The notes under the pieces were generated by a model, which saw nothing but the letters and a program-made list of their open reading frames with translations, was not told the DNA's origin and made no database searches. Of a stretch of 31,904 nt of DNA, positions 655 to 23,476 are shown one piece after another. The position numbers and the translations under genes were made by a program. How positions within the stretch are numbered: the stretch's first letter is position 1; each line of letters opens with the position of its first letter. Source of the stretch: a virus; the IMG/VR virus record IMGVR_UViG_3300045945_000354, positions 1 to 31,904 of that record. The stretch is one strand, 5' to 3'.

Positions 655-843
655 ATGCCCATCGACACCCCCAACCCCCGCCTCGCCGCCTGCGGCGAGG
701 GCGTGTGCACGGCGTGCGGCTTTTCCGCCGAGGCGCACCACAAAGGTGGGCGCTGCTACACGACCGACGAACTGGTCGCGCGGCTGCGGTTCTACGCCGC
801 GACGAACCGGTGGCCGGAGCCGGACGAGGGGTGCGACGCATGA
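655..843 (+). CDS. Small Cys-containing protein of unknown function
   Basis: The ORF encodes 62 residues. AGGAGG ends about six bases before the chosen ATG. It contains CGEGVCTACGFSAEAHHKGGRCY, giving closely spaced Cys and His residues that could bind one metal ion. The second half is helical and acidic. Its stop overlaps the next start (ATGA at 840), so the two are translationally coupled. No family is recognised. Early phage operons often carry such small metal-binding proteins, some of which act on host proteins, but nothing here shows a target. Confidence 0.7.
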   Translation: MPIDTPNPRLAACGEGVCTACGFSAEAHHKGGRCYTTDELVARLRFYAATNRWPEPDEGCDA

Positions 844-1124
844 CCACCCCACCACTGCGTGCCCCCTGCCCCCACTGCGGCGTGGTGCCGCAGTCGCTGG
901 CGCTCGCGACGTGGGGCGACGGCGTGCAGCGGCTGGCCTACGCGCCATTCGTGTGTCTGGCGTGCGGCGGGCTGGCGCTCATCTGGCTCGCCACCGGGCG
1001 GATGGCGGCGCTGGGCTACGACGAGGAAGCCTATCTGCAGACGCACGCGCCGGCGCTGTGGGAGCAGGTTGAGGCGGCGCGGGCGGCCAGGCGGGGGGAG
1101 GAGGACACGCGCGAAGGCTCCTAG
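840..1124 (+). CDS. Small zinc-ribbon-like protein
   Basis: This 94-residue protein starts at the ATG that overlaps the preceding stop. Two CxxC pairs, CPHC near residue 9 and CLAC near residue 42, are spaced as in a single zinc ribbon, with an aromatic and hydrophobic segment between them. The C-terminal half is helical (YDEEAYLQTHAPALWEQVEAARAARR) and charged. It belongs to the rightward early operon. Function is unknown; a nucleic-acid- or protein-binding role is possible from the ribbon alone. Confidence 0.75.
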   Translation: MTTPPLRAPCPHCGVVPQSLALATWGDGVQRLAYAPFVCLACGGLALIWLATGRMAALGYDEEAYLQTHAPALWEQVEAARAARRGEEDTREGS

Positions 1125-1722: not shown

Positions 1723-2048
1723 AGGGCGGAGCTTGTAGCTGCCTTACACCGCGCACGAGGGTAGCCCGTGCCGGATGCGCTACTACGGGAACCGGTACCC
1801 AGTTCCGTTGGGCTGATTGACTGCAGCCCGATTGCTCGCATGCCTTTTAACTGAAAGAAAAGTATGGCGGCATTACACCAGAGCCCAACCGTTTGTGCCT
1901 GCAAGCAGGTGCCTTTAGCTCTGGGGAAATTGTACCTCGTATTTTGTAACCTATGCAAGGTGGATGCGGCAAAGCCGCAGGAGATGTGTTGCCCCGGTGG
2001 GTCAACCTCCTTTCCTCCTCCCCCTGAACGGGGAGGTTTCTCGGAGGA
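1714..2048 (+). ncRNA. Structured non-coding segment, IS200/IS605- or omega-RNA-like (candidate)
   Basis: About 330 bases without a credible gene hold a chain of stem-loops: CCGCCCT/AGGGCGG (1714-1729); GGGTA/TACCC (1759-1800) enclosing CCCGT/ACGGG; GGGCTG/CAGCCC (1810-1829); CCAGAGC/GCTCTGG (1878-1924) enclosing CCTGC/GCAGG; TGCGGC/GCCGCA (1965-1979); GTTGCCC with GGGTCAAC, one bulge (1988-2006); and CCTCCCC/GGGGAGG (2017-2036). Small GC hairpins at both edges recall the subterminal hairpins of IS200/IS605-type elements and their guide-RNA-encoding ends. No transposase, TnpB or IscB gene is present. It could instead be a cis-acting leader for the gene at 2054. The stems are seen; the identity is inferred. 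The strand is assumed from the flanking genes. Confidence 0.5.
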
Positions 2049-5356: not shown

Positions 5357-5380
5357 CATACACACAGCAAGGACACGACG

Positions 5381-6277
5381 ATGATTATCGCAAAAAAGTA
5401 TGTCATGCAGCAGATGACCAGTGCGGAATTTGAAGAGTTGCTCGATCACGGCTGGTCGATGCAGGAACGCGGGGGGGCGCGTGTGCTGCTGCAGACCTCC
5501 ACCGCGGCACGGCTTTTGGCCCGCATGAAACGCAACCGGCCTGAGAAACCACGCACCCAGGAGAAAATCGTGGGCGCGCTTCAGGGGGGATACTTTCGGG
5601 AAAACGGTGAACCCATCATCCTCAATCAGGATCTTGAACCCATTGACGGGCAAAACCGTTTGCAGGCGTGCATCACCTCTGGCCTCCCTCTGCCTGTGGT
5701 CATTCTCTGGGGCTGGCCTGATGCGTGCTTTGATACCATCGACACGGGCACCAAACGCTCTGGGGGCGATATGTTCGCCGCCGATGGCGAACCGAATCAC
5801 AATTTGCTCTCGGCTGCGGCACGCTATGACTGGCGCATCATGCGCAAAGATATGCTCTCGGGCAAGCAGATCCCAGAGCCTCTGATGCGGGACTATCTGG
5901 CGGAAAATGCCGGTCTGCGTGCCGCCTGTTCCTGGGGGGCGAAGGTGGCCCACCTCATTCCGAAAGGGCTCGCTGTCGCCCTGTATTATCGCTTTCACCA
6001 GCAGGATGGCGCGCTGGCGAACACCTTTTTTACGGAACTCTCCAAGGGGGAAAACATCAATGCGCGCGAGCATACCACCTGGCACCTGCGTGACTTGTTG
6101 ATCACGCGACAAAGCGCCAACTTGCACCTCAATAACGTTGAGCAGGCACATATTGCGTCATATGTTATCAAAGCGTGGCATAGCGTCAAAGCAGGCAAAG
6201 TCATAGAGAAACGGCAACTGTTGTGGCGTGGCACGGACAAGAACAACCCCGAACCCTTCCCGGATATCAAAGCATGA
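5381..6277 (+). CDS. ParB/sulfiredoxin-fold phage protein
   Basis: The 298-residue protein has the ParB-like core at residues about 60-130: EKIVGALQGGYFRENGEPIILNQDLEPIDGQNRLQACITSGLPLPVVI, with the IDGQNR signature at 88-93, followed by FDTIDTGTKRS. This fold binds nucleotides, and relatives act in plasmid partition or as nucleases and regulators; many phages carry such stand-alone versions of unknown role. The rest is mostly helical. No HTH follows the core, so classical ParB partitioning is unlikely. The stop overlaps the next start (ATGA). Confidence 0.7.
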   Translation: MIIAKKYVMQQMTSAEFEELLDHGWSMQERGGARVLLQTSTAARLLARMKRNRPEKPRTQEKIVGALQGGYFRENGEPIILNQDLEPIDGQNRLQACITSGLPLPVVILWGWPDACFDTIDTGTKRSGGDMFAADGEPNHNLLSAAARYDWRIMRKDMLSGKQIPEPLMRDYLAENAGLRAACSWGAKVAHLIPKGLAVALYYRFHQQDGALANTFFTELSKGENINAREHTTWHLRDLLITRQSANLHLNNVEQAHIASYVIKAWHSVKAGKVIEKRQLLWRGTDKNNPEPFPDIKA

Positions 6278-6708
6278 GACGCAATATCAAAGAACTGCTT
6301 GATGGTCCAAAGGCCAGGAAACGACTTTCCTACCGTGCGCATAAGAGCCTGGGGAAGTGCGCACGCTGCCAGAATCCCCCGTTAGAGGGGAAAGCGTGTT
6401 GCCAGGATTGCCTCAATAAGATGACGGCAGGCAAGCAACGGGCGCGGGAGGAAGGCAAGTGCCTGGATTGCTGGACCGATCCAGTCGTTCCAGGGAAACG
6501 TTATTGTGTCAGACATGTCGCTCAGCAGCAAAGGAAAGATCAGCAGCGATATACCCTGCGCTTGATTAGAAGGCGCTGTACTACCTGTGGCAAACATCGC
6601 CCTGCCTCTGGGAGACTACAATGTACAAAGTGTCTCAAAAAAATGGCGACCAAACGCGCGGCGAAAAAACTCCCGTATCAGGCAGAGTCTGAGACGCCAT
6701 GCAGCTAG
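6274..6708 (+). CDS. Triple Cys-cluster small protein
   Basis: 144 residues are read from the ATG overlapping the previous stop. Three Cys clusters recur along a very basic chain: CARC with CCQDC; CLDC with a following Cys (RYCVRH); and CTTC with CTKC. Each looks like a small zinc knuckle. The linkers are rich in Lys, Arg and Gln, suggesting nucleic-acid binding. It ends 10 bases inside the methyltransferase gene, so it is coexpressed with it. No family is recognised. Confidence 0.7.
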   Translation: MRRNIKELLDGPKARKRLSYRAHKSLGKCARCQNPPLEGKACCQDCLNKMTAGKQRAREEGKCLDCWTDPVVPGKRYCVRHVAQQQRKDQQRYTLRLIRRRCTTCGKHRPASGRLQCTKCLKKMATKRAAKKLPYQAESETPCS

Positions 6709-7307
6709 ACCTTTTTACCCTCCATGAGCCCACGCCACCTGCCGTCCTCCGGGGGCAGGTTGATCTGCTGTGGCAGATGGTGGACCAGGGCCAGCGCTAT
6801 GCCTGCATCTATGCCGATCCGCCCTGGAGCTTTCGCAATAGGAGCACACGGGCTGCGGCAGAGAAGCATTATGGCACGCTGTCTCTGGCCACCATCAAAG
6901 CGTTGCCGGTGAGACGGCTCGCCCTGGCGCGGGCGCATCTCCACCTGTGGGTACCCAATACGCTGTTGCCCCAGGGTCTTGACGTGCTGCACGCCTGGGG
7001 ATTCGAGTACAAGGGCTACTACGGATGGGGCAAGGAGCGCATGGGCCTGGGCAATTACTGGCGCAATGCCAGCGAACTCATGTTGCTCGGGGTACGCGGC
7101 AATCTCCCGCCCCAAACGCACGATCTACGCAATTGGGGCATCTGGAAGAGGGGCGAGCATAGTCGCAAGCCCGACCAGATCCGACGACTCGTTGAGAAGT
7201 TCAGCCCCGGCCCGTATCTCGAACTCTTTGGGCGTGACGCCATCGACGGTTGGACCGTCTGGGGAAACGACATTGCTCACACGCTCTGGCATCAAGAAGA
7301 AGGATGA
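6699..7307 (+). CDS. MT-A70-family adenine methyltransferase
   Basis: The 202-residue enzyme belongs to the MT-A70 group. YADPPW (residues 38-43) is the catalytic DPPW motif, and the SAM-fold continues with LHLWVPNTLLPQGLDVLHAWGFEYKGYYGWGK and NASELMLLGVRG. The SRKPDQIRRLVEKFSPGPYLELFGR block is the conserved end of the domain. Such phage enzymes methylate adenine N6 in DNA and usually protect the genome from host restriction. No partner nuclease gene is adjacent, so it is an orphan. Length is typical for phage members. Confidence 0.9.
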   Translation: MQLDLFTLHEPTPPAVLRGQVDLLWQMVDQGQRYACIYADPPWSFRNRSTRAAAEKHYGTLSLATIKALPVRRLALARAHLHLWVPNTLLPQGLDVLHAWGFEYKGYYGWGKERMGLGNYWRNASELMLLGVRGNLPPQTHDLRNWGIWKRGEHSRKPDQIRRLVEKFSPGPYLELFGRDAIDGWTVWGNDIAHTLWHQEEG

Positions 7308-7603
7308 CCGCTTTGGCAAAGAAAGAACCCACGCCCCCTGTTGTCTATGCGTCCTTTGACCCGGATGAGGCCGCAGACGATGTTCCCCGCGTGCTGCTCA
7401 ATGGCTGGATCAAGGTCAAATCCTACCGGCGCGGCATTGAAGTCTTGAACGTGGCAACGGTGCGCGTCAATAGCCGCTATATGCTCCAGATCATCGAACA
7501 CGGGAAAGAGGACTTCCCGACCTACATCGACGGGTTCCCATGGACCACGATTCAGGTCATTGCTGAACACGAAGCCATCGCCTGGTTGGAGGAACACCGT
7601 TGA
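7304..7603 (+). CDS. Hypothetical protein
   Basis: A 99-residue protein starts at the ATG overlapping the methyltransferase stop, with AGAAGAAGG upstream. The chain (VLLNGWIKVKSYRRGIEVLNVATVRVNSRYMLQII, then an aromatic, acidic end) is beta-rich and small. No family is recognised. Coupling to the methyltransferase is clear, but no functional link is shown. Confidence 0.65.
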   Translation: MTALAKKEPTPPVVYASFDPDEAADDVPRVLLNGWIKVKSYRRGIEVLNVATVRVNSRYMLQIIEHGKEDFPTYIDGFPWTTIQVIAEHEAIAWLEEHR

Positions 7604-7890
7604 ACCTCCCCATGGCTAAAGCCAGGGGGTTGCCGCGCGTTCTGCTCATTGCGCGCTCCTACGCCTACGTGCCGATGTCGTGGCACGAGTCCGCGGCTGC
7701 GCCGCAGCCGACGCCAACCAGCGCGCACCGCCTCGAGCCGTACACGCCCGAGGAGGCGCTCACGGCCCTCAGCGAGTGGGGACACTGGCACCGCGACGCG
7801 ACGCCGACGGCGAAGGAGGTGGCCCTGCGCTGCCAGATGAACCGGCAGCGCGCCCGCGCCCGCGCCGCCTCGAGGGAGGCCGCGCCGTGA
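7600..7890 (+). CDS. Hypothetical protein
   Basis: 96 residues are read from TTG 7600, which overlaps the previous stop and sits seven bases after GGAGG. An ATG at 7612 is possible but has no site of its own. The C-terminal half (EEALTALSEWGHWHRDATPTAKEVALRCQMNRQRARARAA) looks like a short helix-turn-helix, so DNA binding is possible. It overlaps the GTG of the next gene. Confidence 0.6.
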   Translation: MNLPMAKARGLPRVLLIARSYAYVPMSWHESAAAPQPTPTSAHRLEPYTPEEALTALSEWGHWHRDATPTAKEVALRCQMNRQRARARAASREAAP

Positions 7891-8949: not shown

Positions 8950-9130
8950 GCCACCGCGCCACCCCGGCATGGGCGCCGCCTGCCGCGCCAAAACACACTG
9001 CCCCAAGGGGCACCCGTATGCCGGCGCCAACCTCTATCGGTGGCACAACCGGCGCTACTGCCGCACGTGCTGCAAAGCCCGCAGCGTGGCGCAGTACCAG
9101 CGCCTGAAGGAGGAGAGACATGCCCCGTAG
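8939..9130 (+). CDS. Small basic Cys protein, HNH-like zinc knuckle
   Basis: 63 residues from ATG 8939 behind AGGGAGG. The pattern C-x-K-G-H-P-Y-A-x-x-N-L-Y, then RRYCRTCCKARSVAQYQ, is the zinc-binding half seen beside many phage HNH domains and in small stand-alone relatives. The catalytic HNH His pair is absent, so cleavage is not expected. It overlaps the start of the secreted beta-helix gene by 11 bases. Confidence 0.65.
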   Translation: MAAKPPRHPGMGAACRAKTHCPKGHPYAGANLYRWHNRRYCRTCCKARSVAQYQRLKEERHAP

Positions 9131-10364
9131 TCTCTACTGCTTCCTCTCCCTGCTCGCGGCTGTGCTGCTCGTGCTGGTGCTGCCACCGTGCGCGCAGAGT
9201 GCGACGTATACGGTGTCCCAGGAGACCGGCGACGATGCGGCCGCATGCGGCAGTGGCCCCAGAAAGACCGTCAACGCAGGCATCGCGTGCCTTCACCAGG
9301 GCGATACCCTGGAGCTGGCCAGTGGCACCTACGCCGAACAAATTGCCGACGTGGACGACCGCGAGCATCCCGGCACAAAGCGCCCGCCCAACGGGCTCTC
9401 CTGGGAGCAGGCCACCATCATTCGCGCCGCTCCTGGCGCCACGGTGACCCTCACCTTCCCGCCCCAGGGGCTGGCGCATCTGGTGTTCCTGGGACGTGCG
9501 GACACGCAGTACATCCAGATTGGCCCCGGGCTGACGCTTGACTGCCAATCCACAAGCTCCAACTGTGTCTGGCTCGGCCCCGGGTCGCACCAACGCCTGC
9601 TCGGCTCGACCGTGCACCATTCGCGGCAATCGTGCGTGTTTACCGCCCGCGAGGGGCCCAGCGGCCAGCGCACCGGCGGTGAGGACCTGCAGGTGATCGG
9701 CAATACCATCCACGACTGCTGGCAAGCACTCTATGAAACTCCACCGGACACCTCGGGTGGAGGCGGACACGGCATCTACTGTACCGGGAAAGGCGGCCGC
9801 TATGCGTACAATCGCGTCACGGCGTCGAATGGGTACGGCATCCACTGTTCCGCAGAGCAAGGCGGGGTGGAGGGGAATGTGATCGAATACAACGTGGTCA
9901 CCGGCCCGGGCCGCTGGTGCATCCGGCTGGCCGGCTCAGGCAACAGCGCCCGCCACAACGCCTGTCACCTGATGACCTCCGGGATTGTGACTGGCGGCAG
10001 TAGCGCCCAGGTGGAACACAACCTGGTCAAAGGTTACACACCGTCCAATCCGCTGCTGCAAGCGCTCGACACGTATGGGGTGCATGGCAAAACCGCTGGC
10101 ACGATTCTCAGCAATACGCTGCTGGAGCTGCCAGCGGCCTCGCGCTATCTCGTGGTGGAGGCTGGCGGGGTGACCGTGGATGGCAACCAGTGTGATGTCA
10201 CCGCGCCGTATTGTACGCCGTATACGCCCCCCGAGCCGCCTGATCCTGAGCCACCTGATCCCACACCACCGCCGCTGCCCGAGGTGGCACGGTGTGCGTT
10301 CACGCGCAACGGCGCGGTGCTGGCGCAGTGGTTGTGCGAGGAACCCGCACAGAGGAGACGGTAG
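9120..10364 (+). CDS. Exported right-handed beta-helix protein
   Basis: The 414-residue product starts at ATG 9120 behind GGAGG. Residues 1-27 are a signal peptide (hydrophobic LSLLAAVLLVLVLPP, probable cut after AQS). Residues about 50-350 show the irregular repeats of a pectate-lyase-like parallel beta-helix: an early GDTLELASGTYAE, then repeated segments such as VIGNTIHDC, GHGIYC, GNVIEYNVVTG and VEHNLVKG. Many Cys residues suggest disulphides after export. A proline-rich linker (YTPPEPPDPEPPDPTPPPLP) leads to the tag RCAFTRNGAVLAQWLCE. Phage beta-helices are often tail spikes, but a signal peptide points to host export, hence a cargo gene altering the host surface. Activity on polysaccharide is inference. 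Confidence 0.75.
   Translation: MPRSLYCFLSLLAAVLLVLVLPPCAQSATYTVSQETGDDAAACGSGPRKTVNAGIACLHQGDTLELASGTYAEQIADVDDREHPGTKRPPNGLSWEQATIIRAAPGATVTLTFPPQGLAHLVFLGRADTQYIQIGPGLTLDCQSTSSNCVWLGPGSHQRLLGSTVHHSRQSCVFTAREGPSGQRTGGEDLQVIGNTIHDCWQALYETPPDTSGGGGHGIYCTGKGGRYAYNRVTASNGYGIHCSAEQGGVEGNVIEYNVVTGPGRWCIRLAGSGNSARHNACHLMTSGIVTGGSSAQVEHNLVKGYTPSNPLLQALDTYGVHGKTAGTILSNTLLELPAASRYLVVEAGGVTVDGNQCDVTAPYCTPYTPPEPPDPEPPDPTPPPLPEVARCAFTRNGAVLAQWLCEEPAQRRR
10284..10364 (+). repeat. Tail module copy R1
   Basis: 27 codons at the end of the beta-helix gene encode (V)ARCAFTRNGAVLAQWLCE plus a basic end (QRRR), and also carry AGAGGAG, the ribosome site of the next gene. Compared with R2 over the first 19 codons, eight differ silently and three conservatively, so the peptide rather than the DNA looks conserved. 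Confidence 0.8.
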
Positions 10365-10365
10365 G

Positions 10366-11004
10366 ATGCGCGTACTGATTGGCTGTGAGTTTAGCGGCGT
10401 TGTCCGTGAGGCATTTACCACCCTGGGCCATGACGCCTGGTCCTGTGATCTGCTGCCGAGTGAGCGCGCCGGGCAGCACCTCCAGGGGAATCTGCTCGAC
10501 GTCCTGGGTGAGCACTGGGACCTGGCGATCTTTCACCCACCCTGTACGTTCCTCGCCAATAGTGGCGCCCGCTGGTGGTCACAGCGTGGACAGGAGCAAG
10601 CGGACGCGCTGCGCTTTGTGGCACGGTTGCTCGATGCGCCCATCCCTCGTATTGCCCTGGAGAACCCTGAAGGCAAAATTGGCACCGCCATCAGGAAATG
10701 CGATCAAATGATTCATCCCTGGGAATACGGCGACTGTGCCGAGAAAAAGACGTGTCTGTGGCTCAAAAACCTGCCCTTACTCCAACCCACAGCCCTGGTC
10801 TGGCCCAGACCGCAACTGTGCTGGCGCATGGGACAAAGCCAACGCCGCGCGCAGGAGCGCAGCCGTACGTACCCTGGCATTGCGGCGGCCATGGCGCAGC
10901 AGTGGGGGGGGCTGCCCTCAATCGCGCGCTGCGCGTTGACGAGGAACGGCACCGTCTTAGCGCAGTGGCTGTGTGAGCAGGGGACAACACAGAGGAGACG
11001 CTGA
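10366..11004 (+). CDS. Cytosine-C5 methyltransferase-like phage protein
   Basis: The 212-residue protein starts at ATG 10366. MRVLIGCEFSGVVREAF is the SAM-binding first motif; HPPCTFLANSG holds the Pro-Cys of C5-cytosine enzymes; ENPEGKIG resembles the ENV motif; and RSRTYPGIAAAMAQQWG is the usual C-terminal end. This is the short phage form, with little room for a large target-recognition domain. It would modify cytosines, probably to evade restriction, though activity is unproved. About 27 further residues carry the tag also found on the preceding beta-helix protein. The stop overlaps the next start (TGATG). Confidence 0.8.
   Translation: MRVLIGCEFSGVVREAFTTLGHDAWSCDLLPSERAGQHLQGNLLDVLGEHWDLAIFHPPCTFLANSGARWWSQRGQEQADALRFVARLLDAPIPRIALENPEGKIGTAIRKCDQMIHPWEYGDCAEKKTCLWLKNLPLLQPTALVWPRPQLCWRMGQSQRRAQERSRTYPGIAAAMAQQWGGLPSIARCALTRNGTVLAQWLCEQGTTQRRR
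10921..11004 (+). repeat. Tail module copy R2
   Basis: 28 codons at the end of the methyltransferase-like gene encode (I)ARCALTRNGTVLAQWLCE and QRRR. They lie beyond the usual end of that enzyme family. AGAGGAG at its end serves the GIY-YIG gene. It is in frame and parallels R1. Confidence 0.8.
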
Positions 11005-11555
11005 TGACAGAACTTGCCGATTATGCCAGTATGTACCGAGAGAGGAGGGAGGGCAGACTGCAAAGTGCCCTGAACTCTATCCCGAAAAACCTTGTTGATT
11101 TGCCTCAACTCCCTTTCGATGATCGGCAACGCTTGCCGGTCTTTTGTGCCGTCTATTTTGTCATGAAATGTACTGATACTGTCCTCTATATTGGCATGGC
11201 ACATAATCTGCGGAGAAGGTGGCAGTCTCATGCACTCTACAAGCCACTGCTCCGCGTTGGAGCAACAGCGATTGGTTGGCTCCCGCAGTATGATGCCTTC
11301 ATAGCCAAAGATATTGAACAACATTGCATTAAGCTCTTTCAACCGCCCTTTAATTACCAGGGCAAAAGCTTCTACGATGGCGGCACTGAAGTCATCAAGT
11401 TGACACAAGAAGATCGAGCCCTTGCTGAGACCTTTGCTGCGAAGCTGAATGAGGAAAGAATCTGGTTTATGTACGGCACGGGTGATGCCCTGCGTATTGC
11501 TGCTCTGCGATATATGCGCGGGGCACTTTTTGTTTCAGACGAGGCTGTGGAATAG
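11004..11555 (+). CDS. GIY-YIG nuclease, candidate homing endonuclease
   Basis: The 183-residue protein has the GIY-YIG core: VYF at 50-52, YIG at 62-64, the catalytic Arg within NLRRRWQSH (about 70-73), the Glu at 105 and the Asn at 117 (IEQHCIKLFQPPFN). These are the expected catalytic positions. The first 45 and last 60 residues are not recognised and may bind DNA. Codons look less GC-biased than in the neighbours, which hints at separate ancestry. It lies between two copies of the tail module, as if inserted there. A free-standing homing endonuclease is the simplest view; a repair or restriction role is possible. Confidence 0.75.
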   Translation: MTELADYASMYRERREGRLQSALNSIPKNLVDLPQLPFDDRQRLPVFCAVYFVMKCTDTVLYIGMAHNLRRRWQSHALYKPLLRVGATAIGWLPQYDAFIAKDIEQHCIKLFQPPFNYQGKSFYDGGTEVIKLTQEDRALAETFAAKLNEERIWFMYGTGDALRIAALRYMRGALFVSDEAVE

Positions 11556-11562
11556 CCCGCTG

Positions 11563-11643
11563 ATGGCCCGCTAGCTCGTCACGCGCAACGGCACCGTCTT
11601 AGCGCAATGGTTGTGCGAGGGCACCGCAGAGAGGAGGAAATGA
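11563..11643 (+). pseudogene. Decayed tail module copy R3
   Basis: Eight bases after the GIY-YIG stop, codons corresponding to MAR-stop-LVTRNGTVLAQWLCEGTAERRK can be read, but out of frame with that gene and with TAG where R2 has TGC. The rest aligns codon by codon to R1 and R2, again mainly with silent changes. It ends in GAGGAGG, which serves the gene at 11645. It looks like a former gene end cut off when something was inserted or recombined. Confidence 0.7.
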
Positions 11644-11644
11644 C

Positions 11645-11878
11645 ATGCCTGTACGCTGGCACAGGAACGCGAAGGAACAGCGGCGCACGCAGAAATCCAA
11701 GCGCGCTCACCGTAAGAAGACGAAGGCGCGCCGCGACGCTGTGCCTGGCGCGGGCATGCCTGCTCCTTCAGCGCCCCATGGCGCGAATACACTGGTCCAT
11801 CGTCGCGCTGCCTGTGGCCATGAGCACATCATTGTGTGCCCACGGCGCGATCCTGGTGACCCGCACACAGCCGCTTAA
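11645..11878 (+). CDS. Small highly basic protein
   Basis: 77 residues from ATG 11645, seven bases after GAGGAGG. An ATG at 11640 in another frame is too close to the site. The N-terminal half is Lys/Arg-rich (WHRNAKEQRRTQKSKRAHRKKTKARR), suggesting nucleic-acid binding; the rest has CGHEHIIVCP, a possible metal site. Its last 111 bases overlap a convergent lipoprotein gene, so one of the two may be shorter than shown. Last rightward gene of the block. Confidence 0.5.
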   Translation: MPVRWHRNAKEQRRTQKSKRAHRKKTKARRDAVPGAGMPAPSAPHGANTLVHRRAACGHEHIIVCPRRDPGDPHTAA

Positions 11879-12188: not shown

Positions 12189-14891
12189 CTATACACATAG
12201 CCCCAGGTTGACCAGAGCGGTGCGCAGCGCATTCACGAGTGTCTGGACGGTGGCCGCATCGGTGGCGGCAACGGGCACCGTCTGGCGTACAACTGCCGCC
12301 TGGCCAAAGAAGCCCAGCAGAGCCGCCGTACCGCTCGTATCAATGCGCATGCCCTCGCGAGCGGCCGTCGCATCATAGACCGAGAAGGTGAGGCGGGCAG
12401 TGCGGGTGGCGTCTGTGGAGACGACCCAGGACGGCGCCAGCAGCGCCTGTGGGCGCTCCTGGGTACTGGACTGGCCGACCAGGAGGGTCGAGCCCTTGAC
12501 GTTTGCGGCCTGGTAGGCGGCGCCAGAGCCCAGGGTGGCGGTGAGCAGCGTGCCGAGCCCGACCAGGTCGCCCAGGACATGACTGGTGCCGTCTTCGGTG
12601 CGCAGATGCAGGGAGGCTTTGCCAGCGGTCGCCGCGCGGTCGGCGCTCCATATCTGGACCATATCCACAGGCGAGGTTGTCGGCGCGATGCCACTTGCCA
12701 GGGCCAGCACCCGTACCGCACTGGTGCCAAACGTCGTGGCACCGATCCCCACATTGCCACTGCTCTCAATGCGCAGGCGTTCGATCGGTACATTGGAGCC
12801 ATCAGGCACCGTATGCACACTGAGCCGCCCAGGACCATCCGTCCCGGTGGTGCCGTAGCCCGCCTCCGCATAGGCCCGGATTTGCACTGAGGGAATCCGG
12901 GTATCCGTGTAGCCTACAAACTGAATGAGCCCGAGCAAATCCTCCGCCAGGGTGCTGGTCATGGCGGCGTGCGTGCCGCGGGCGCGTTCCAAACCCAGGA
13001 CGGACGTATTACTGGCATGGGCCGTCGTGACCGCAAATGTGCTCTGTGTATCACTGCCAATATGCGCCGTAAAGAGGATGCTATGGGGCATGCCAATATC
13101 GAGCATGGAGATTGGTGTGAGGGTCCCAATCCCCACCCGGTCGCCAAACACATGGCTGGTGCCATCCTCCGTACGCAGATGCAAACTTCCCTTGCCCACC
13201 ACAGCGCCCCGGTCTGCAGCCCAGAGCTGGACGCTATCGGCTGGGGATGTCGTGGGCGCTGTCCCCAACGCCAGGGCCAGCACGCGCCCAGCACTGGTGC
13301 CAAAGGTCGTCGTGCCTATCCCGAGCGACCCATTGACATAGTTATTGGCCGTCCCGTCAAGATACAGATTCCAGCGATTGGTCCCAGCGGCAAGCTGTCC
13401 TCTGAGTCCATAGGACGTGCCGGAGACGGTATCACCGAGCATGTCGATAGCGGTATACGCCCCAATCGTTGAGCCCGCGCCCAGGGTCGGGGAGCCGACC
13501 GAGAGGCCCGTCATGGCTGCCAGCGTAAACGCCGCCGCTTGCGTATAGAGGTCAATGCGGAGACCGTAGCCATTCGCGGTCACACTGCTATTAAATGTCG
13601 GCTGAATGGCCGCGCCGTATTCTGCGGTGTTGCCAGAGGCCAGCGCTCCGGTGACGCGCAGCGCAATGTTGCTCGCCCACGCACTGATGATTCCCAGGCG
13701 ATGCGTAATGTTGACATCCGTAAACGTCGGGCTCGTCGAGAGCCCCAGGGTATCGAGCTTGGCCTGCATGGCTGCGGCGCTGATGACGCGCATCGTGTCT
13801 GTTCCGGTAATGGCTTCAGCATTGGTGGCAAGTTCGACAAGACCGACCGCACTGGTCGAGCCAACCGGAATGGCGGCCACACGGGCTTCCAGGCCATTGG
13901 GCGTGACAGCAGCGGTACTGAGCGTCCCGGCGGTCGATTCCGCCACGGTGGCATAGCGGGTGATCCCGACCGTGGAGACGGTGGCCTGTACAGGCGCAGC
14001 AGGGAGAGCGTTGATTGTGGCCTGGAGCCCTGCAGGTGTCACCGCCATGGTCCCGTTTGTCCCCGCCAGCGTCGTCGGACTGTCCGCTAACTGCACAATC
14101 CCGGGCTGGGTCGTGGTGGCGCTCTGAATCGACGCCGCCAGACTGAACACCACGACCAGCGTCTGATTGTTGGGAAAGACGCTGCCGCCGTTGCTATCCC
14201 AGGCCACCGCAAAGCTCCACCAGGTGACGTTTTTGACCCCATCAGCCGTGAGCCGGTAGCGCACAAAGTTGGCGCTGGTGTCGCGGTCTTGCAGGTACAA
14301 GAGGTCGCCACTCTGGAGCGTATCGAGGAGGGCGGAGCGGTCGACGCCGTCCGAGCCCGTGGCGTGCATGCGCAGTTCTGTGGCAACAGTGACGCCCGTG
14401 GTATTGATGCCGGTTTGCCCGGTCGATGGCGCGCCACTGGTGGCCGTGGTCCAACTCCACTGCCCGCTGGCACTGGCGACAACCGACGTGCCGCCGCCAG
14501 AGCCCGTGCCGCCCACGGTCAGGAGATTGGTGCCATCACAGTAGGCCATGGTGCGGGCGGATTGCGGCAGAGAAAGCGTGTTGCCGGCGCCCGTGGTGAT
14601 GGAGAGCGTGCCTGCGCCCGTGGTGCGATTATCCAGCACGTAGAGCCGGGAGCGCCTGGGAGCCGTAATGAGACAGTTGGCTGCCAGTGAGCCCGCAAAC
14701 GCCAGCACGGAGTAGAGCGACAGATCTTCGGAGGCAGATTGCAGGGTGAGGGTTGTGAGCCCCGTGACGGTGACACTGCGGTAGCCAGAGACGCCACGCG
14801 CCAGGTTCTCTAGCCCGGTGTTGGTGATACTTTCCTTAGCTAAAGAGCCTATATCAATCAGCTCTATATCTCGTATGCTTGTCAGGGCCAT
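12189..14891 (-). CDS. Tail fibre protein
   Basis: The 900-residue protein starts at ATG 14891 behind AAAAGGGG. It is low in Cys and rich in Ser, Thr, Gly and Ala. Around residues 265-360 it carries the fibre repeat type TTTQPGIVQLADSPTTLAGTN with AVTPAGLQ and two further variants. Beyond that are trimeric-fibre-like segments such as GNVGIGATTFGTS, with a 191-codon duplication (copies at 12,547-12,762 and 13,120-13,335). The end, GFFGQAAVVRQTVPVAATDAATVQTLVNAL, resembles the conserved tip of phage fibre proteins. It follows the J-like gene, as expected. It should bind the host surface; the receptor is unknown. Confidence 0.85.
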   Translation of the reverse strand: MALTSIRDIELIDIGSLAKESITNTGLENLARGVSGYRSVTVTGLTTLTLQSASEDLSLYSVLAFAGSLAANCLITAPRRSRLYVLDNRTTGAGTLSITTGAGNTLSLPQSARTMAYCDGTNLLTVGGTGSGGGTSVVASASGQWSWTTATSGAPSTGQTGINTTGVTVATELRMHATGSDGVDRSALLDTLQSGDLLYLQDRDTSANFVRYRLTADGVKNVTWWSFAVAWDSNGGSVFPNNQTLVVVFSLAASIQSATTTQPGIVQLADSPTTLAGTNGTMAVTPAGLQATINALPAAPVQATVSTVGITRYATVAESTAGTLSTAAVTPNGLEARVAAIPVGSTSAVGLVELATNAEAITGTDTMRVISAAAMQAKLDTLGLSTSPTFTDVNITHRLGIISAWASNIALRVTGALASGNTAEYGAAIQPTFNSSVTANGYGLRIDLYTQAAAFTLAAMTGLSVGSPTLGAGSTIGAYTAIDMLGDTVSGTSYGLRGQLAAGTNRWNLYLDGTANNYVNGSLGIGTTTFGTSAGRVLALALGTAPTTSPADSVQLWAADRGAVVGKGSLHLRTEDGTSHVFGDRVGIGTLTPISMLDIGMPHSILFTAHIGSDTQSTFAVTTAHASNTSVLGLERARGTHAAMTSTLAEDLLGLIQFVGYTDTRIPSVQIRAYAEAGYGTTGTDGPGRLSVHTVPDGSNVPIERLRIESSGNVGIGATTFGTSAVRVLALASGIAPTTSPVDMVQIWSADRAATAGKASLHLRTEDGTSHVLGDLVGLGTLLTATLGSGAAYQAANVKGSTLLVGQSSTQERPQALLAPSWVVSTDATRTARLTFSVYDATAAREGMRIDTSGTAALLGFFGQAAVVRQTVPVAATDAATVQTLVNALRTALVNLGLCV
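12547..12762 (-). repeat. Tail fibre duplicated segment, copy B
   Basis: Encodes a segment running from IGATTFGTSAVRVLAL to SLHLRTEDGTSHVLGD and GLGTL. It matches copy A at a period of 573 bases (191 codons) with many silent changes, so it is an old in-frame duplication. Confidence 0.75.
13120..13335 (-). repeat. Tail fibre duplicated segment, copy A
   Basis: Encodes a segment running from GIGTTTFGTSAGRVLAL to SLHLRTEDGTSHVFGD and GIGTL, the partner of the copy 573 bases away. Repeated shaft units of this kind lengthen fibres. Confidence 0.75.
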
Positions 14892-14925: not shown

Positions 14926-17900
14926 TCATTCTGTACTCTCCCCAACCAGTGCCAGGGCATAGCTAGTATCGGAGTCCCCATACTGCTGTACGTTCCAATA
15001 GAGCGTGGTCTGCACTGCGCCAAAATCGGTCATTTGCTGCGCTGCCGTATACGTCATGCCCTGCTGTGCCTGATAGTTACTCGACTGAAAGATGGTAAAC
15101 GTGTGCTCGATAGTCGTGCGCGCCGCACTGCTATAGATGGTCACGACATAATAGTTCACGTCATAATCAGGCGTGGCCTCCACTTGCGGCAGCCACTCGC
15201 CAAGAAACCGCGCTCGTCCGTACCACGTCAGTCGCCAGGAGCCATCGGCCTGATACCGTGCTCTGGGCGTCCCGACCGTCCAGGGCCGTAAATTCTCACT
15301 CGGTGCGGCATAGGCTTGTGCGGTTGCCTCCACCAGATCTTCGCCGAGCGTGGGACTCTTCCACTGCCTGGTACGATTGCGCTCAACAGTCAGAATGTCT
15401 CTCGTAAAAACGCCCGTGCCAATAAGGACCACCGTTTCCCCTATGGCATGTGTCCCTACCGCCCACTCCGTCCCACGCCTGCCTCTCAGCAGGTGTGAAA
15501 GTCGGTAGCGCCGACTGCCTGCCGCGGTGCCTGTGCCGAGATACGTCGCTATCCGAAACTGGATCAGCTCACTCCCCACCATGAGCTGATTGCGTCCCGC
15601 CTGCATGTATGCTGTGGTAATGGTGGACAGTTGGCCGCCGGTCACGACCACATCCACGGTTGAGGTCATATCCACCAGTTGGGGGATGGCGCTCGCTAAC
15701 ACCGTCTCGGTGGTGCCTGCCACAGGCAGTGGCGCGCCTCTGGACGAGAGCGCGTACTGGGTATTGGCGTCATCCTCCGTGCGCCAGAGCGACGCGCCAG
15801 GCCAGGGCTCGGTTGGGGCAGGACGTGGCTCACCGCTCTCCAGGAGCCCTGGCCCGCCCAGTGGCTGATAGGAGGCGTGATAGCGCGCCAGGGTATCAGA
15901 GGAGTACATGGCCGGGAGTGCAAAAAAATTGGTCGTGGTCTGCGGCACCAGCCCGGCCCCGGAGGTGTCATACACGTCGCTGCGATACTCCGCGCCGACG
16001 AGGGTATACGTGTCATTGTCCCCCGCCTGCACGGACTCGATCAGCACCGGCACGATCTCTTGTCCCAGTTTGCCGATGGCGTACAGATCCCCTGCCGCGG
16101 GCGCCACGTCCAACGCCGGTGCCACGTACAGATGCCCAAACGGGCCAGTCTCCGTGGCCACCCAGGTGCGCGTGTAGACCAGATTGGCGCGCTGGATACG
16201 CACAATGACTTCATAGGTTTCGCCAGCACGCTGCTCAAACAGGCGGTCGAGCATGAGCAGCAGCGTGGTGGAGCCTGCCTGAAGAAACCCGCTGACCCCG
16301 TGGCGCCTTTTGGGCGTCTCATACGCCAGCATGACCACATCAAAGGGCTCAGAGACGATGGCCCCCACCGGACTCTGCCAGGTGTAGCGCCGCACCACTT
16401 TGCGGGATTTGTTGAGGGCATAGGTGAGGGCACGCAGGGCATGGGACTCCCGGGTAATGGTGGTGAGCTGGATGGTCGATTCCTGCACCGACTCGCTCCC
16501 GATATCCGACGCGACACCTTCGAGCACCTGGAGCCGATAGCCGTGGGCGTCATCCCGAAACTCGCCTCTGACCGTGTTGGGCACCGGCCCCTGCGACCCC
16601 AGGACCGTACTCAGCGTGCCAGGCTCAATGTTGCCGGGAGCGGCATAGAGCAACCCAGGCACTTTGGCGCCATCAATGACGTATTTGAGTCGACCGCCCG
16701 AGGGAATGAGCGCGGCATTCCCTTCGGTCAAAATATCCCTGACATGATCCCAGGCTGGACGCCGCCGATTAATCAGCACATCGCAAAAATCGCGCGTTTC
16801 GCCGTTAATCTCGGCATTATAGTACTGCCCGCACGCCAGAGCCGCATTATCATCCCACAGGGTTTCTGGGATACGGTGCCCCATGCCGGCACGGGGCTCG
16901 GTCAAGAGATCGCGCACCACCCAGACGCGATTGCGCGAGAACCCGTATTGATAGCTCGACCCGTTCCACACTTTGACTTTCCGCCCATCCACCAGGGCCG
17001 ACACTTGCATGCCTTCAAACGAGGTAATGGCGGCAGAGGAAATGCCCTGCACGGCCAGGAGCGCCGCATACGGATAGCGCAGCACTTCCGGGCGATAGGT
17101 GTATTCTTGCACGTTGTAGAGCACGGGCACGGCACCGCCCTGATTGCGGTCGCCATTGGCCCGCACCTCCACCTGCCACTGCCCTGGCCCAGGAATAGGC
17201 ACGCCGTAGGCGTTAAACGTGGGCGATGAGGTATGCCCGGACCACCACAGCGACGCATCCCGCGAGGCGGGTGCGGCTTCGCCCTCCAGATAGGCGCCGT
17301 GCCAGACGGTCTCTTCCACCCGCTTGTAGCGCACCCAGACAAACACCTCCCCGTTCACTTCCCGATTGTTCTCCTGAAAGATCAGATGCGGCACCACAAA
17401 ATAGAGCACCAGGCTCCCCACCTCGGTGCCGCGTGTCTGGTACACAATGGGGGTCTGCAATTCCCGCCCGTCATGATACACCTGGGTCCCTACCTGCCAG
17501 CCGTACATGTCCGACTGGTCTGCCGTGCCGGGACGCCAGTCATACGTGGTGCCAGGATACTCGGCAAGGGGCACGTCATTAATCTCGATATCGCGGATAT
17601 TGCTGATCTCCCCTTCGCCCATGTAGTACAGGACGCCGTACTTCATGCGCCGCAGGGAGACATCCAGCTCGACCTGCGTGCCAATAATGTGCCCAAACAC
17701 ACGCTGGCGCCCATAGATGAGCGTTTTAGGTGTGCCGAGTGCCACCGTGTTGGAGAGTCCGGCAATCCCAAACGCCTCCTCAGGCCTTTGCTGGGCAGTG
17801 GCTCTGGTGGGGTCAGGGCGGTTGGTGAGCAGGAGCTGGAGCCCGTAGGTAATGCCGTAGACGATGAGGCTCACGGCAACCGCCTTGGCCAGGGCAATGA

Positions 17901-19870: not shown

Positions 19871-22800
19871 TTAGCGCCCCGCCTGACGCACGATCACACG
19901 ACGGATCACGCCATCCTGCTGGATGTTCCTCGTGACTATTTGTACAATCTCTTCAGGACTTGTTCTATACTGACTCATGTCAACCGGGGCCGCAATGACC
20001 ACCGTCAACTCCAGCGGCTTTTCCTGTGTGCCGGGCGTGCTCTGCTGGTTCTGGCCAGGCGTGGCTGGCGGCAGTGACGTGCTGGAAGCCGTGCGCTGCT
20101 GCAGCCGCTCCGTGGCATGGCTATCGACGTACTGGTACTGTGGAACGGCATGTGGCATCAGGTGCTCCATGGCCGTCCACATGCGTCTGGTGATGTCTTC
20201 AGGCATCACACCAGAAAAGAGTTGCGGCATCTGGGGCACCTGCGGCAGTTGCGCTATCTGGGGCAGTTGCGCTATCTGGGGCAGTTGCGCTATCTGCGGC
20301 AGTTGCGCTATCTGCGGCACCTGGGGCAGTTGCGCTATCTGGGGCAGTTGCGCTATCTGCGGCAGTTGCGCTATCTGCGGCACCTGGGGCAGTTGCGGCA
20401 TCTGGGGCACGACAGCGCTGCGCGTCTGCTGTAAGCTTATACGCAAGTCCTGTGCCGCCTGCGCCAGGCTGCTCAGGAGCGTGGCGTGCGGACCAGCGAG
20501 GGCGATGCCCTGTAGAAAGGTCTGCAGCCCCTGGGCGGTGAGCGGCACAATCGCTTCAGGACCAGCTTCACCCATAAGCATGCTGCGCACGATGGCGCCG
20601 TGTTGTGCACCTGTAGTCAGGACAGGGCCAAGGCTGCTTCCAGGCGTAAAGCCCCCGGCATCAAACACGCTACTGCCGCCGCCAACGGTGGGCGCGCTTG
20701 GAGCTATGGAGCCGCTGGCCGCGCCCGCCACGATGCCAAGAATTTTGCCAATCCAGCCCACGATGCCGCCGCCACCTGTGCTGGACCCTGCCAGCTGTTT
20801 GGCCATCTGTGCCAGCGCCTCACTCACGGGTTCAAACGCCGCTTTGACCAGGCTCTGCCCAAAGGCTTTGACGAGATCCAGGGCTAACTGTTTCATCACA
20901 TCGCCAAAGTGCTCGGCACTGTCCACGGCATCGTCGAGGATGCGCACAACGCTGTGCTCCAATGTCTCGCCCACTGCCTCAAAACCCTCGACCAGTCCCC
21001 GGTACAGCGGCTCAGCTTCGGCCAGCGCCTGCTGCATGGCATCGCGCACCTGTGCCAGACGCGCATCTTCTTTTCCCAGCAGCCTTTCTAACTCTGCGTA
21101 GTCTTTGCGGTACTGTTCGGCCAGCGGCAACTGGCGCGTTTCACGACGCTCAAAGCGGCTGAGCAGGGCGTTGGCGGCACTCTGCTGTTGCTTGACCGCA
21201 TCCTCGACATCGCGCGCAAAGGCTTCTTCCTGGGCTTTGGTGGCTTTGGCATCCTGTAACTCTTTATAGCTCGTGACTAACTTCTCAATCTGTGCCTTTT
21301 CGCTATAGAGCTCGGTCGCTCTGGCGCGAAAGCGCTCCACATCGGTCTGGAAGAACTGGGCGCGCTCGTTCTCCAGGGCTTGCTCAAAGGCTCGCCGGTC
21401 CTGGATCTTCTGCTGTAAGGCGCTCTGTGCGTCCGTCAGGCGTTTTGTCGCTTCGGCCTGTGCGGAGAGGCGCTGGACATCCTTTTCGGCGAACCCTTCT
21501 GCCCGGCGCTGCTTTTCAAAAAAGCCCGTCTCCCCTAACAGCGCTTTGTCATAGGCTTCTTGTACCTGTCGCTCTATGTCAAGGCGATGCTGACGCGCCT
21601 GCGTCACTGCCTGTTCCGTGTGTCGCGCTTGCGCGTTCCTCGCTGTCCTGGCGTTGTCGGCAGCTTCAATGGCTTTGGTGAGCGTGTCTTCACTCTGCGC
21701 TTGCTCGCGGATGTTTTTGGCTGGAGTGCTATCCTTGTAGATGTTCCAGAGACGCTGATTGGACTCAATAAACCTGGCGTGCTCTTCATTGAGCTTTTTC
21801 TGCACCTCGAGGCGCTCACGCTCCGTTGGTGCGCGTCCACGCAGCGCCAGCGTACTCGCTTCCAGGTCCTGCATGGCCCTGGCGCCTTTGGCTGCTTGTG
21901 CAGTCAAGTCCTCAACAAATTTGACCGTTTTGGTATCCCGCGCGCCGCGCTCAGGCTCGCCCTCAAGGCTGTACAGGTCGCCCTGCTCGCGGGCAGTTTT
22001 GCCCGCCTGGGTCAGTTGGCGCTCAAGCTGGATGATCTGCTCTTTCACCTCTACAAGGCGCTTCCGCGTTCGTTCGAGGCCCTCCTCAGCAGTCTCCAAT
22101 CCCAGCAGGACCGTCATTGGAGGAGAGGCTTGCTGTGCCCGCAAGTCTTTGTACAGACCCTCTTCTTCCTCACGCAGACGATGCAGCTGACGGAAGGTCT
22201 CTCCCTGCTGCGCGGCAGCCGCCCCGGCACGCTCTTTATCCCGCTTGAGGGCATCATCAGCCGCTTTGCTATAACCGAGGGCCGCATCGGCTGCGTCGTT
22301 AAACCACTTGACGATGGCGGTGAGCTTTTCCACCGTGGCGGCAAAGGCCGGCAGGAGTGCCGTGCCAATCGTCGTGCGCAGATCGGTCATGGCATTGCCG
22401 AGCCGCGCCAGGGCCCCCTGGGCACCCCGCGAGGCAGCTTCGGTCGCATCGCCCAGGTCGCGCCGCACCACCCGCGCCCAGGTTGCCCAGTTCTCAATGC
22501 CCACCTTGCCCGCTTCTAAGAGCTTGCCCAGCTCAGCGGTGGAAACGCCCATGGCCCGCGCCATGTCGTTAAACGCGCCCGGGAGACGCTCAGAGAGCTG
22601 GCCCCGAAGTTCTTCAGCTTGAATGGTTCCTTTTGAAATACTTTGGCCTATAGCAAGCAGCGCGCCATTGATTTCCTCGGACGTGCGCCCCAGCACCCGG
22701 CCTTTTTCGACCACGGCGGTAAAGATGTCGCGCAGTTGGGCACTCGTAATGCTGGTGTTTTGCGCTGCCGCGGCAACCGTGGTGAAGCCTTTGGCGAGAC

Positions 22801-23476
22801 TCTGGAAGTCAACCCCCAGCCGCTCAGACGTCTGCCGTAAGAACTGCAGATCAGCGGTGGCGGCCTGCGTCGAGCCGCTGATGGCGCGGAAGGTGGCCTG
22901 AAGACTCTGCATCTGGATGGCAGTACGGATCGAAGAGCTGATCGCCTCTTTGAGGGCGCCAAAGGCCTGTGTCAGTGTCAGGACTGCGGTACCAATGGCG
23001 GCAAAGCGGCCGACACTGAGTCCTCCCAGCAGGCCGCCGGCCCCGCCGTCTGTGCCAGGGCCTGGCGTCGTGAGGCGCAAACCTGCCACCTCGCCCGCCG
23101 CCTGCCGCGCACTGCGCCCATACGCCGCTACGGCACTCGAGGCCTGCCCCATGGCCTGGGCGTTACGCGTGGCGCTCTGAGACAGGACCTCGATCGTGGT
23201 GGAGAGCCGCTGCGTCGCCTGCGTGGTCTGCGTGAGCGTGGCGCCTGGCACCGCCTGCGGCGTGAGCGTCGGCAGGCGTGGCGCCACCTGCGGCAGGATC
23301 TGAGACCGCAGCGTCTGCATGCGCGTTCCTGCCGCGCTCGTAGCCTGGCCGAGTCCCTGGGCCGCCATGGAGGCCTGCGCGTTCAGGCGGGTGAGGATGC
23401 CCTCAATGTGGCGCAACTGGGCACTGGCCTGGTCCTGGACACGCACGACAATATCAACATTGTCACTCTCAGCCAT
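19871..23476 (-). CDS. Tape measure protein
   Basis: The 1201-residue protein starts at ATG 23476 behind AGGGAG, overlapping the chaperone reading frame. The N-terminus [28 protein letters not shown] and the region about 180-370 ([33 protein letters not shown], then [36 protein letters not shown]) are the classic tape measure N-terminal domain. Residues about 400-900 are long coiled coil. Hydrophobic helices around 150-175 and 910-960 suit membrane contact. It sets tail length; at about 0.15 nm per residue, as in known phages, the tail would be about 180 nm. Residues about 1022-1085 are an unusual proline/glutamine repeat. Confidence 0.95.
   Translation of the reverse strand: [1201 protein letters not shown]
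20222..20411 (-). repeat. Hexapeptide repeat in the tape measure gene
   Basis: 18-base units encode PQIAQL seven times, two of them preceded by PQV and one stretch opening and closing with PQMPQL. The DNA copies are nearly identical, so copy number may change by slippage. The repeat would form an extended proline-rich rod near the C-terminal end of the tape measure. Confidence 0.85.

Follow-up and report, generated by a model that had tools for sequence, protein, structure and literature searches.

A conserved C-terminal peptide at the ends of neighbouring genes in an uncultured tailed phage

A 31.9-kb genome fragment from an uncultured tailed phage (hereafter the window, meaning the whole stretch of DNA that was analysed) carries three copies of a ~90-bp module, ending at 10364, 11004 and ~11644, along three plus-strand genes at 9120-11644 that encode a beta-helix protein, a cytosine-5 methyltransferase-like protein and a GIY-YIG nuclease. 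The module closes the first two genes in frame, where it is translated into the peptide LPxxARCA[FL]TRNG[AT]VLAQWLCE, and lies out of frame after the third. Judging from the codon changes that separate the copies, the peptide is kept by selection, firmly so for the beta-helix lineage, and the conserved item appears to be the amino-acid sequence, while the DNA drifts. The explanation that we prefer, with our confidence evenly divided between its being right and wrong, is that a C-terminal peptide, under selection and native to the beta-helix protein, has been copied, together with the ribosome site of the next gene, by recombination at gene junctions.

Three copies of a terminal module

The copies (c1, c2 and c3 in gene order; Table 1) find each other in a self-BLAST of the window, with 83% identity over 58 nt between c1 and c3 (E 5e-10), 80% over 59 nt between c2 and c3 (E 3e-7) and 71% over 90 nt between c1 and c2 (E 4e-5). 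A degenerate peptide pattern allowing ≤3 mismatches hits exactly these three sites in the window, where 0.02 would be expected by chance. The sequence-only reading that preceded this analysis had described one module behind three consecutive genes; all three copies are where it had seen them, although only c1 and c2 are translated. Its codon count for c1 and c2 is exact (that is, eight silent and three conservative differences, V/I, F/L and A/T, in the first 19 codons), and, as it had also reported, each copy contains the ribosome site of the next gene, AGAGGAG(A/G), ahead of the following ATG. Between the conserved core and the stop, 7-8 codons remain in each translated copy.

Assembly error, which the same reading had considered as a source of the copies, is unlikely, as a sibling contig in IMG/VR (G002, L004) contains the entire module region with 0 mismatches between 8000 and 13000. 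This sibling matches the window over 16.9 kb, and because it extends ~8.5 kb beyond the window start and rejoins the window end, the phage genome is about 40 kb.

Table 1. Genes, module copies and ribosome sites of the window, and the tailed open reading frames of an independent contig
Feature	Position	Strand	Description
Beta-helix gene, 414 aa	9120..10364	+	ORF; signal-peptide-like N-terminus, right-handed beta-helix body, proline-rich linker, C-terminal module
Module copy c1	about 10272-10364	+	18-codon core 10287-10340; reads LPEVARCAFTRNGAVLAQWLCEEPAQRRR, then stop; holds ribosome site of methyltransferase gene
Ribosome site in c1	10351-10358		before ATG 10366
Phage cytosine-5 DNA methyltransferase-like gene	10366..11004	+	body residues 1-182, then module as C-terminal extension
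Module copy c2	about 10909-11004	+	core 10924-10977; reads LPSIARCALTRNGTVLAQWLCEQGTTQRRR, then stop; holds ribosome site of GIY-YIG gene
Ribosome site in c2	10991-10998		before ATG 11004
GIY-YIG nuclease gene	11004..11555	+	Pfam PF01541; stops before module, other frame
Module copy c3	about 11557-11644	+	core 11566-11619; decayed, untranslated; TRNGTVLAQWLCE readable; AGAGGAGG at 11630-11637
Ribosome site in c3	11630-11637		before ATG 11645
Small basic ORF, 77 aa, candidate gene	11645..11878	+	behind c3; ORF list only
Five consecutive ORFs with RP[VA]RK[IF]R[ILV][VL] tail	L160 (G019:C1:1-8300) 5372-7872; also L099, L095		contigs G019/L099, G020/L095

Selection on the peptide

Among 2.9 million IMG/VR contigs, a strict peptide pattern occurs, besides the window, only in the sibling and in a 55.8-kb contig of another phage (G001, L005), which encodes a distant beta-helix homologue with the same C-terminal peptide. 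The two tails are identical at 25 of 27 residues and the two bodies at 114 of 327 aligned positions (M and W left out), with 31% body identity in the tblastn segment. Within the 18-codon core, c1 and the L005 copy are separated by 9 nucleotide changes that alter 8 codons silently and no amino acid (P about 2e-5 in a neutral simulation), whereas c1 and c2 are separated by 8 silent and 2 conservative differences (P about 4e-5). Both comparisons bear out the earlier proposal that the peptide is selected. The terminal Q-R-R-R is the translation of the ribosome site CAGAGGAGACG and is not countable as peptide conservation. Selection in turn implies that the beta-helix protein, at least, makes use of the peptide.

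Identical residues are encoded by the same codon at a frequency of 0.60 in the tail and 0.49 in the body, codon usage leading one to expect about 0.43. Codon use is thus near saturation in both, which indicates an old tail under constraint and not a recent copy; with codons about as saturated in the tail as in the body, we reject a recent transfer of the tail between the two phages. In L005, the module is present as a single copy behind the beta-helix gene and is followed by unrelated genes, and the flanks are not syntenic with the window.

The wider search for the peptide that the sequence-only reading had proposed gave the beta-helix carrier of L005 and, in IMG/VR, INPHARED, PLSDB and 84,980 genomes, no further carrier. 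Searches with profiles derived from the tails found no others in IMG/VR or in the GTDB species genomes (the 84,980 prokaryote genomes), nor did tblastn of INPHARED and PLSDB, and a loose pattern returned 17 further IMG/VR contigs, all of which are without the peptide. In phages related through their capsid genes, no match to the beta-helix gene, the methyltransferase gene or the module was obtained by searches that had no positive control of their own; these phages have head genes in common with the window, little else, and no informative empty site. The tail has no match in Pfam or PHROG and no convincing match in PDB. A likeness to the zinc finger of DNA polymerase epsilon (15 residues, E 0.007-0.02) is taken as chance.

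Given that the conserved core lies so close to the stop in each translated copy and that the ribosome site of the next gene is inside the module, the peptide might instead act on the ribosome. SecM-type arrest peptides tune the translation of the next gene in this way. A nascent chain that slows or arrests the ribosome at the gene end, and so tunes the translation of the gene that follows, would be indifferent to the destination of its protein; even so, we consider it improbable here. All four copies fold at the level of shuffled sequences (z -0.3 to +1.7), which argues against a conserved RNA element and leaves the module without a stable structure such as a SecM-like hairpin hiding the ribosome site, and Rfam has no match to the module. 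The downstream genes also differ between the phages, and a comparable tail in the contig G019 (see below) is present on a gene that no other gene follows closely. Finally, the tail bears no likeness to the RAPP motif (PMC10951233).

Acquisition of the tail by the methyltransferase gene

The methyltransferase-like protein matches PHROG 757 (E 7e-63), and its best matches among solved structures are C5 cytosine methyltransferases (DNMT3 and the M.HhaI fold, TM 0.4-0.5). Together with this fold, the PPC and ENP motifs (P58 P59 C60 and E99 N100 P101, invariant in 28 relatives) identify it as a cytosine-5 methyltransferase. Relatives were found in at least 600 IMG/VR stretches, and the 79 best of these (sibling excluded; ≤63% identity) terminate at QW[GSA] or carry short unrelated extensions there, without the module. 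In the window protein, the module starts directly after QWGG, that is, exactly past the end of the family domain. When the whole beta-helix and methyltransferase proteins are compared by BLASTP, the tail is their only significant match (E 1e-10) and the bodies are unrelated. Because 79 family members end without it, the methyltransferase appears to have acquired its tail copy. Homologues of the two proteins, which the sequence-only reading had wanted compared, are therefore divided: the beta-helix homologue of L005 has the module and the 79 methyltransferase relatives do not.

Of the transferable C-terminal tag that had been suggested, it is thus the transfer that gains support from the methyltransferase relatives, and a role as a tag on carriers other than the beta-helix protein is hypothetical. 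A tag would take all of its carriers to one partner or place (for example, the membrane, the virion or a host factor) and would have spread because every carrier profits from it, which we regard as possible, if rather unlikely. In its favour are that the peptide is kept while the codons change, between c1 and c2 as well, and that five consecutive ORFs of contig G019 end in RP[VA]RK[IF]R..., four of them with the motif exactly two residues before the stop. The carriers in the window are, however, an apparently exported beta-helix protein (which matches Pfam PF13229 at E 2e-5, just below the cut-off) and a cytoplasmic enzyme, for which a common place is not obvious. In addition, AlphaFold predicts the enzyme core confidently and gives the tail no confident structure, and, with this enzyme being the sole methyltransferase that carries the tail, the changes private to c2 are too few to show selection after the fusion.

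The nuclease gene and the decayed copy

The product of the third gene has a GIY-YIG domain (PF01541; 22.7 bits against a cut-off of 22.6, covering the N-terminal part of the domain only). With a GC content of 0.489 against 0.625 for the window, the gene is foreign in composition and probably a recent arrival, which would have either displaced a gene that bore the tag or shed a tail that it once had. No relatives of it were found beyond the sibling contig. Behind it, the decayed third copy that the sequence-only reading had noticed is confirmed: it is untranslated and, in the module frame, reads MAR, a stop (TAG at 11572-11574), LVTRNGTVLAQWLCEGTAERRK and a second stop. It is 6 nt shorter than c1; its upstream part has the stop, two further changed codons and the 6-nt deletion, and within TRNGTVLAQWLCE it differs from c2 by silent changes only (5 nucleotides). 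The 77-aa ORF that follows has no Pfam or PHROG match.

A foreign gene between c2 and c3, with c3 decaying and out of frame, would also be expected if the GIY-YIG gene, as a homing-type or other insertion, had brought its own copy of the 3' end of its target gene and the old end had stayed behind, c2 and c3 being displaced remnants. Homing endonuclease genes are indeed common at the boundaries of exchange between phages (PMC10448857). Nevertheless, the methyltransferase gene reads in frame into an intact c2, c2 and c3 are only 80% alike, which speaks against a recent target duplication, and besides the sibling contig there is no GIY-YIG relative for comparison; we therefore hold such a scar to be quite unlikely.

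Known systems and an independent analogue

The sequence-only reading knew of no described system of this kind, and this has to be corrected, as there is a published precedent: in genes 67 and 68 of mycobacteriophage Island3, compared with Brujita, 18 C-terminal residues and about 60 bp of DNA are common (PMC3029335, Fig. 5C), which its authors read as recombination at a boundary sequence (PMC3029335). As in the window, the Island3 genes are adjacent and have a common 3' end, the last part of which extends into the beginning of the following gene. One of the Island3 genes has no homologues, and a relative has a single copy; the single copy of L005 has flanks that are not syntenic. The shared 3' end of 50-90 bp on consecutive genes with otherwise unrelated bodies agrees with boundary modules of the Island3 67/68 type; the recent exchange that would go with such a module is not seen, the DNA identity between the copies being 71-83% and the codons being near saturation. 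Whereas Island3 has two copies with closely similar DNA in a recent pair of relatives (3 silent and 5 amino-acid differences in the last 22 codons of 67 and 68), the window has three diverged copies and a peptide kept across phages. Conserved boundary sequences have also been proposed for phage mosaicism in general and, as far as they are summarized in PMC3029335, likewise consist of short homology at gene junctions that recombination can use; they differ in that the stretch in the window is coding, with amino acids rather than DNA being conserved. The arrangement is rare, and on the sequences compared it is of the known shared-3'-end type, set apart by selection on the peptide across phages.

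Short portable peptides on unrelated phage proteins are themselves familiar. The capsid targeting sequence of T4 is present on several unrelated internal proteins, where it is N-terminal and is cleaved by the prohead protease, whereas the tail described here is C-terminal and one of its carriers has an apparent signal peptide.

In a small scan without base-rate design for neighbouring ORFs with like C-termini, covering about 1 Mb of phage DNA, we recovered the window, Island3 (included on account of its publication) and tandem paralogues, along with one clean case that is new, contig G019 of an unrelated tailed phage. The paralogues (L136, G015, 13364-13820, minus strand) are two overlapping small cysteine-rich ORFs ending in ACLACLARWRAVYELAGYE and do not represent a tail on unrelated genes; the partly paralogous genes of L071 were likewise set aside as not equivalent. 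The five tailed ORFs of G019 (Table 1) comprise 72, 95, 450, 173 and 56 codons (stop to stop), with tails that lie 2-5 residues before the stop and have diverged codons. Like the window, G019 therefore has consecutive ORFs of different sizes with one peptide in diverged codons, and ribosome-site-like purines at several ends; it differs in that the peptide is another, shorter and basic one, that five copies are open and that the comparison covers two phages. About 80 nt with no obvious coupled gene follow the last copy, which apparently closes the operon; this is evidence against a purely translational role in G019. Two of the G019 ORFs were searched against INPHARED without a match, and the RP[VA]RK[IF]R motif was not found in the literature searched. 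G019 is the best reason to keep a tag in consideration, and is a stronger analogue than Island3.

Extending both cases, one can envision operon-specific C-terminal tags, in which unrelated accessory proteins encoded in a row share a selected peptide (here RCA[FL]TRNGxVLAQWLCE, and RP[VA]RK[IF]R in the five ORFs of G019) that leads them to a common partner or compartment, with new cargo gaining the tag on entry into the slot; we consider such a generalization doubtful.

Proposed model

In the explanation that we prefer, the module would be native to the apparently exported beta-helix protein, where it stands behind a flexible proline linker, with its coding DNA joined to the ribosome site of whichever gene follows. 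Accessory genes that were inserted downstream may have received copies at their 3' ends, first the methyltransferase gene and then the slot now occupied by the GIY-YIG gene, where the copy would be decaying. As a short homology, the module would provide an incoming gene with an upstream ribosome site and with a ready-made C-terminus at its other end, and the peptide may act after translation, as an interaction or localization element of the beta-helix protein. The direction of copying, recombination as its means and the post-translational action are what we infer. Three tails in a row, each with the next ribosome site, and a single copy elsewhere form a pattern that gene-boundary recombination would leave.

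Consistent with copying at junctions, the L005 copy is single with unrelated genes after it, the GIY-YIG gene is of foreign composition and the module is fused behind the methyltransferase domain. The first two of these observations make plausible a slot in which cargo genes are swapped, which the sequence-only reading had offered beside the tag. Two points count against the explanation that we prefer: with only 71-83% identity between the copies, no recent exchange is visible, and the comparison yielded no two phages that differ in the presence of the insertion at a syntenic site. At a few informative sites, the codons of c2 and c3 group against those of c1 and L005 (ACC versus GCN; CGC versus CGG), which suggests that the tail lineages predate the divergence of the two beta-helix genes; sparse as these sites are, the grouping favours a long-lived tail or tag family over local duplication.

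Common 3' ends of neighbouring phage genes have so far been read as passive homology for exchange. That amino acids are kept as the DNA drifts, here and even more so in G019, implies an independent function for at least one of these tails. If the tails are tags, proteins of phage accessory operons could be grouped by common destination from their sequences; if they are boundaries only, they illustrate how phage genomes take up new genes together with a functional ribosome site.

Further features of the compared contigs

Of the 107 mismatches that separate the window from its sibling, 102 lie in the final 0.9 kb of the matching region (G002 (L111) 1-900, window 16000-16887), the two being nearly identical elsewhere; so this cluster at the contig end of G002 would represent a strain switch or an assembly chimera.

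The window and G001, whose DNA is otherwise hardly alike, have in common a 44-bp stretch of 100% identity (window 7600-7650, G001 36953-36996), which stands out for that reason. A 32-bp part of it, TTGAACCTCCCCATGGCTAAAGCCAGGGG, forms a hairpin and recurs in G001 at 37448-37479 and 53563-53594; TTGAACCTCCCCATGGCTAAAGCCAGGGG may resemble an IS200/IS605-type end. Near the hairpin copies of G001, 36710-36814 and 37042-37088 have about 79% identity to window 1926-2031. A zinc-ribbon-like gene is also common to both phages (window 841-1124, L005 2537-2824; 66% identity), adjoining the beta-helix gene upstream in L005 and lying 8 kb from it in the window. Elsewhere in the window, a tape-measure-like gene (19871-23476) contains a tandem repeat of PQIAQLPQ/PQVPQ units at 20220-20410, and a long minus-strand gene (12189-14891) contains two 203-bp stretches, 12547-12749 and 13120-13322, that are 70% identical.
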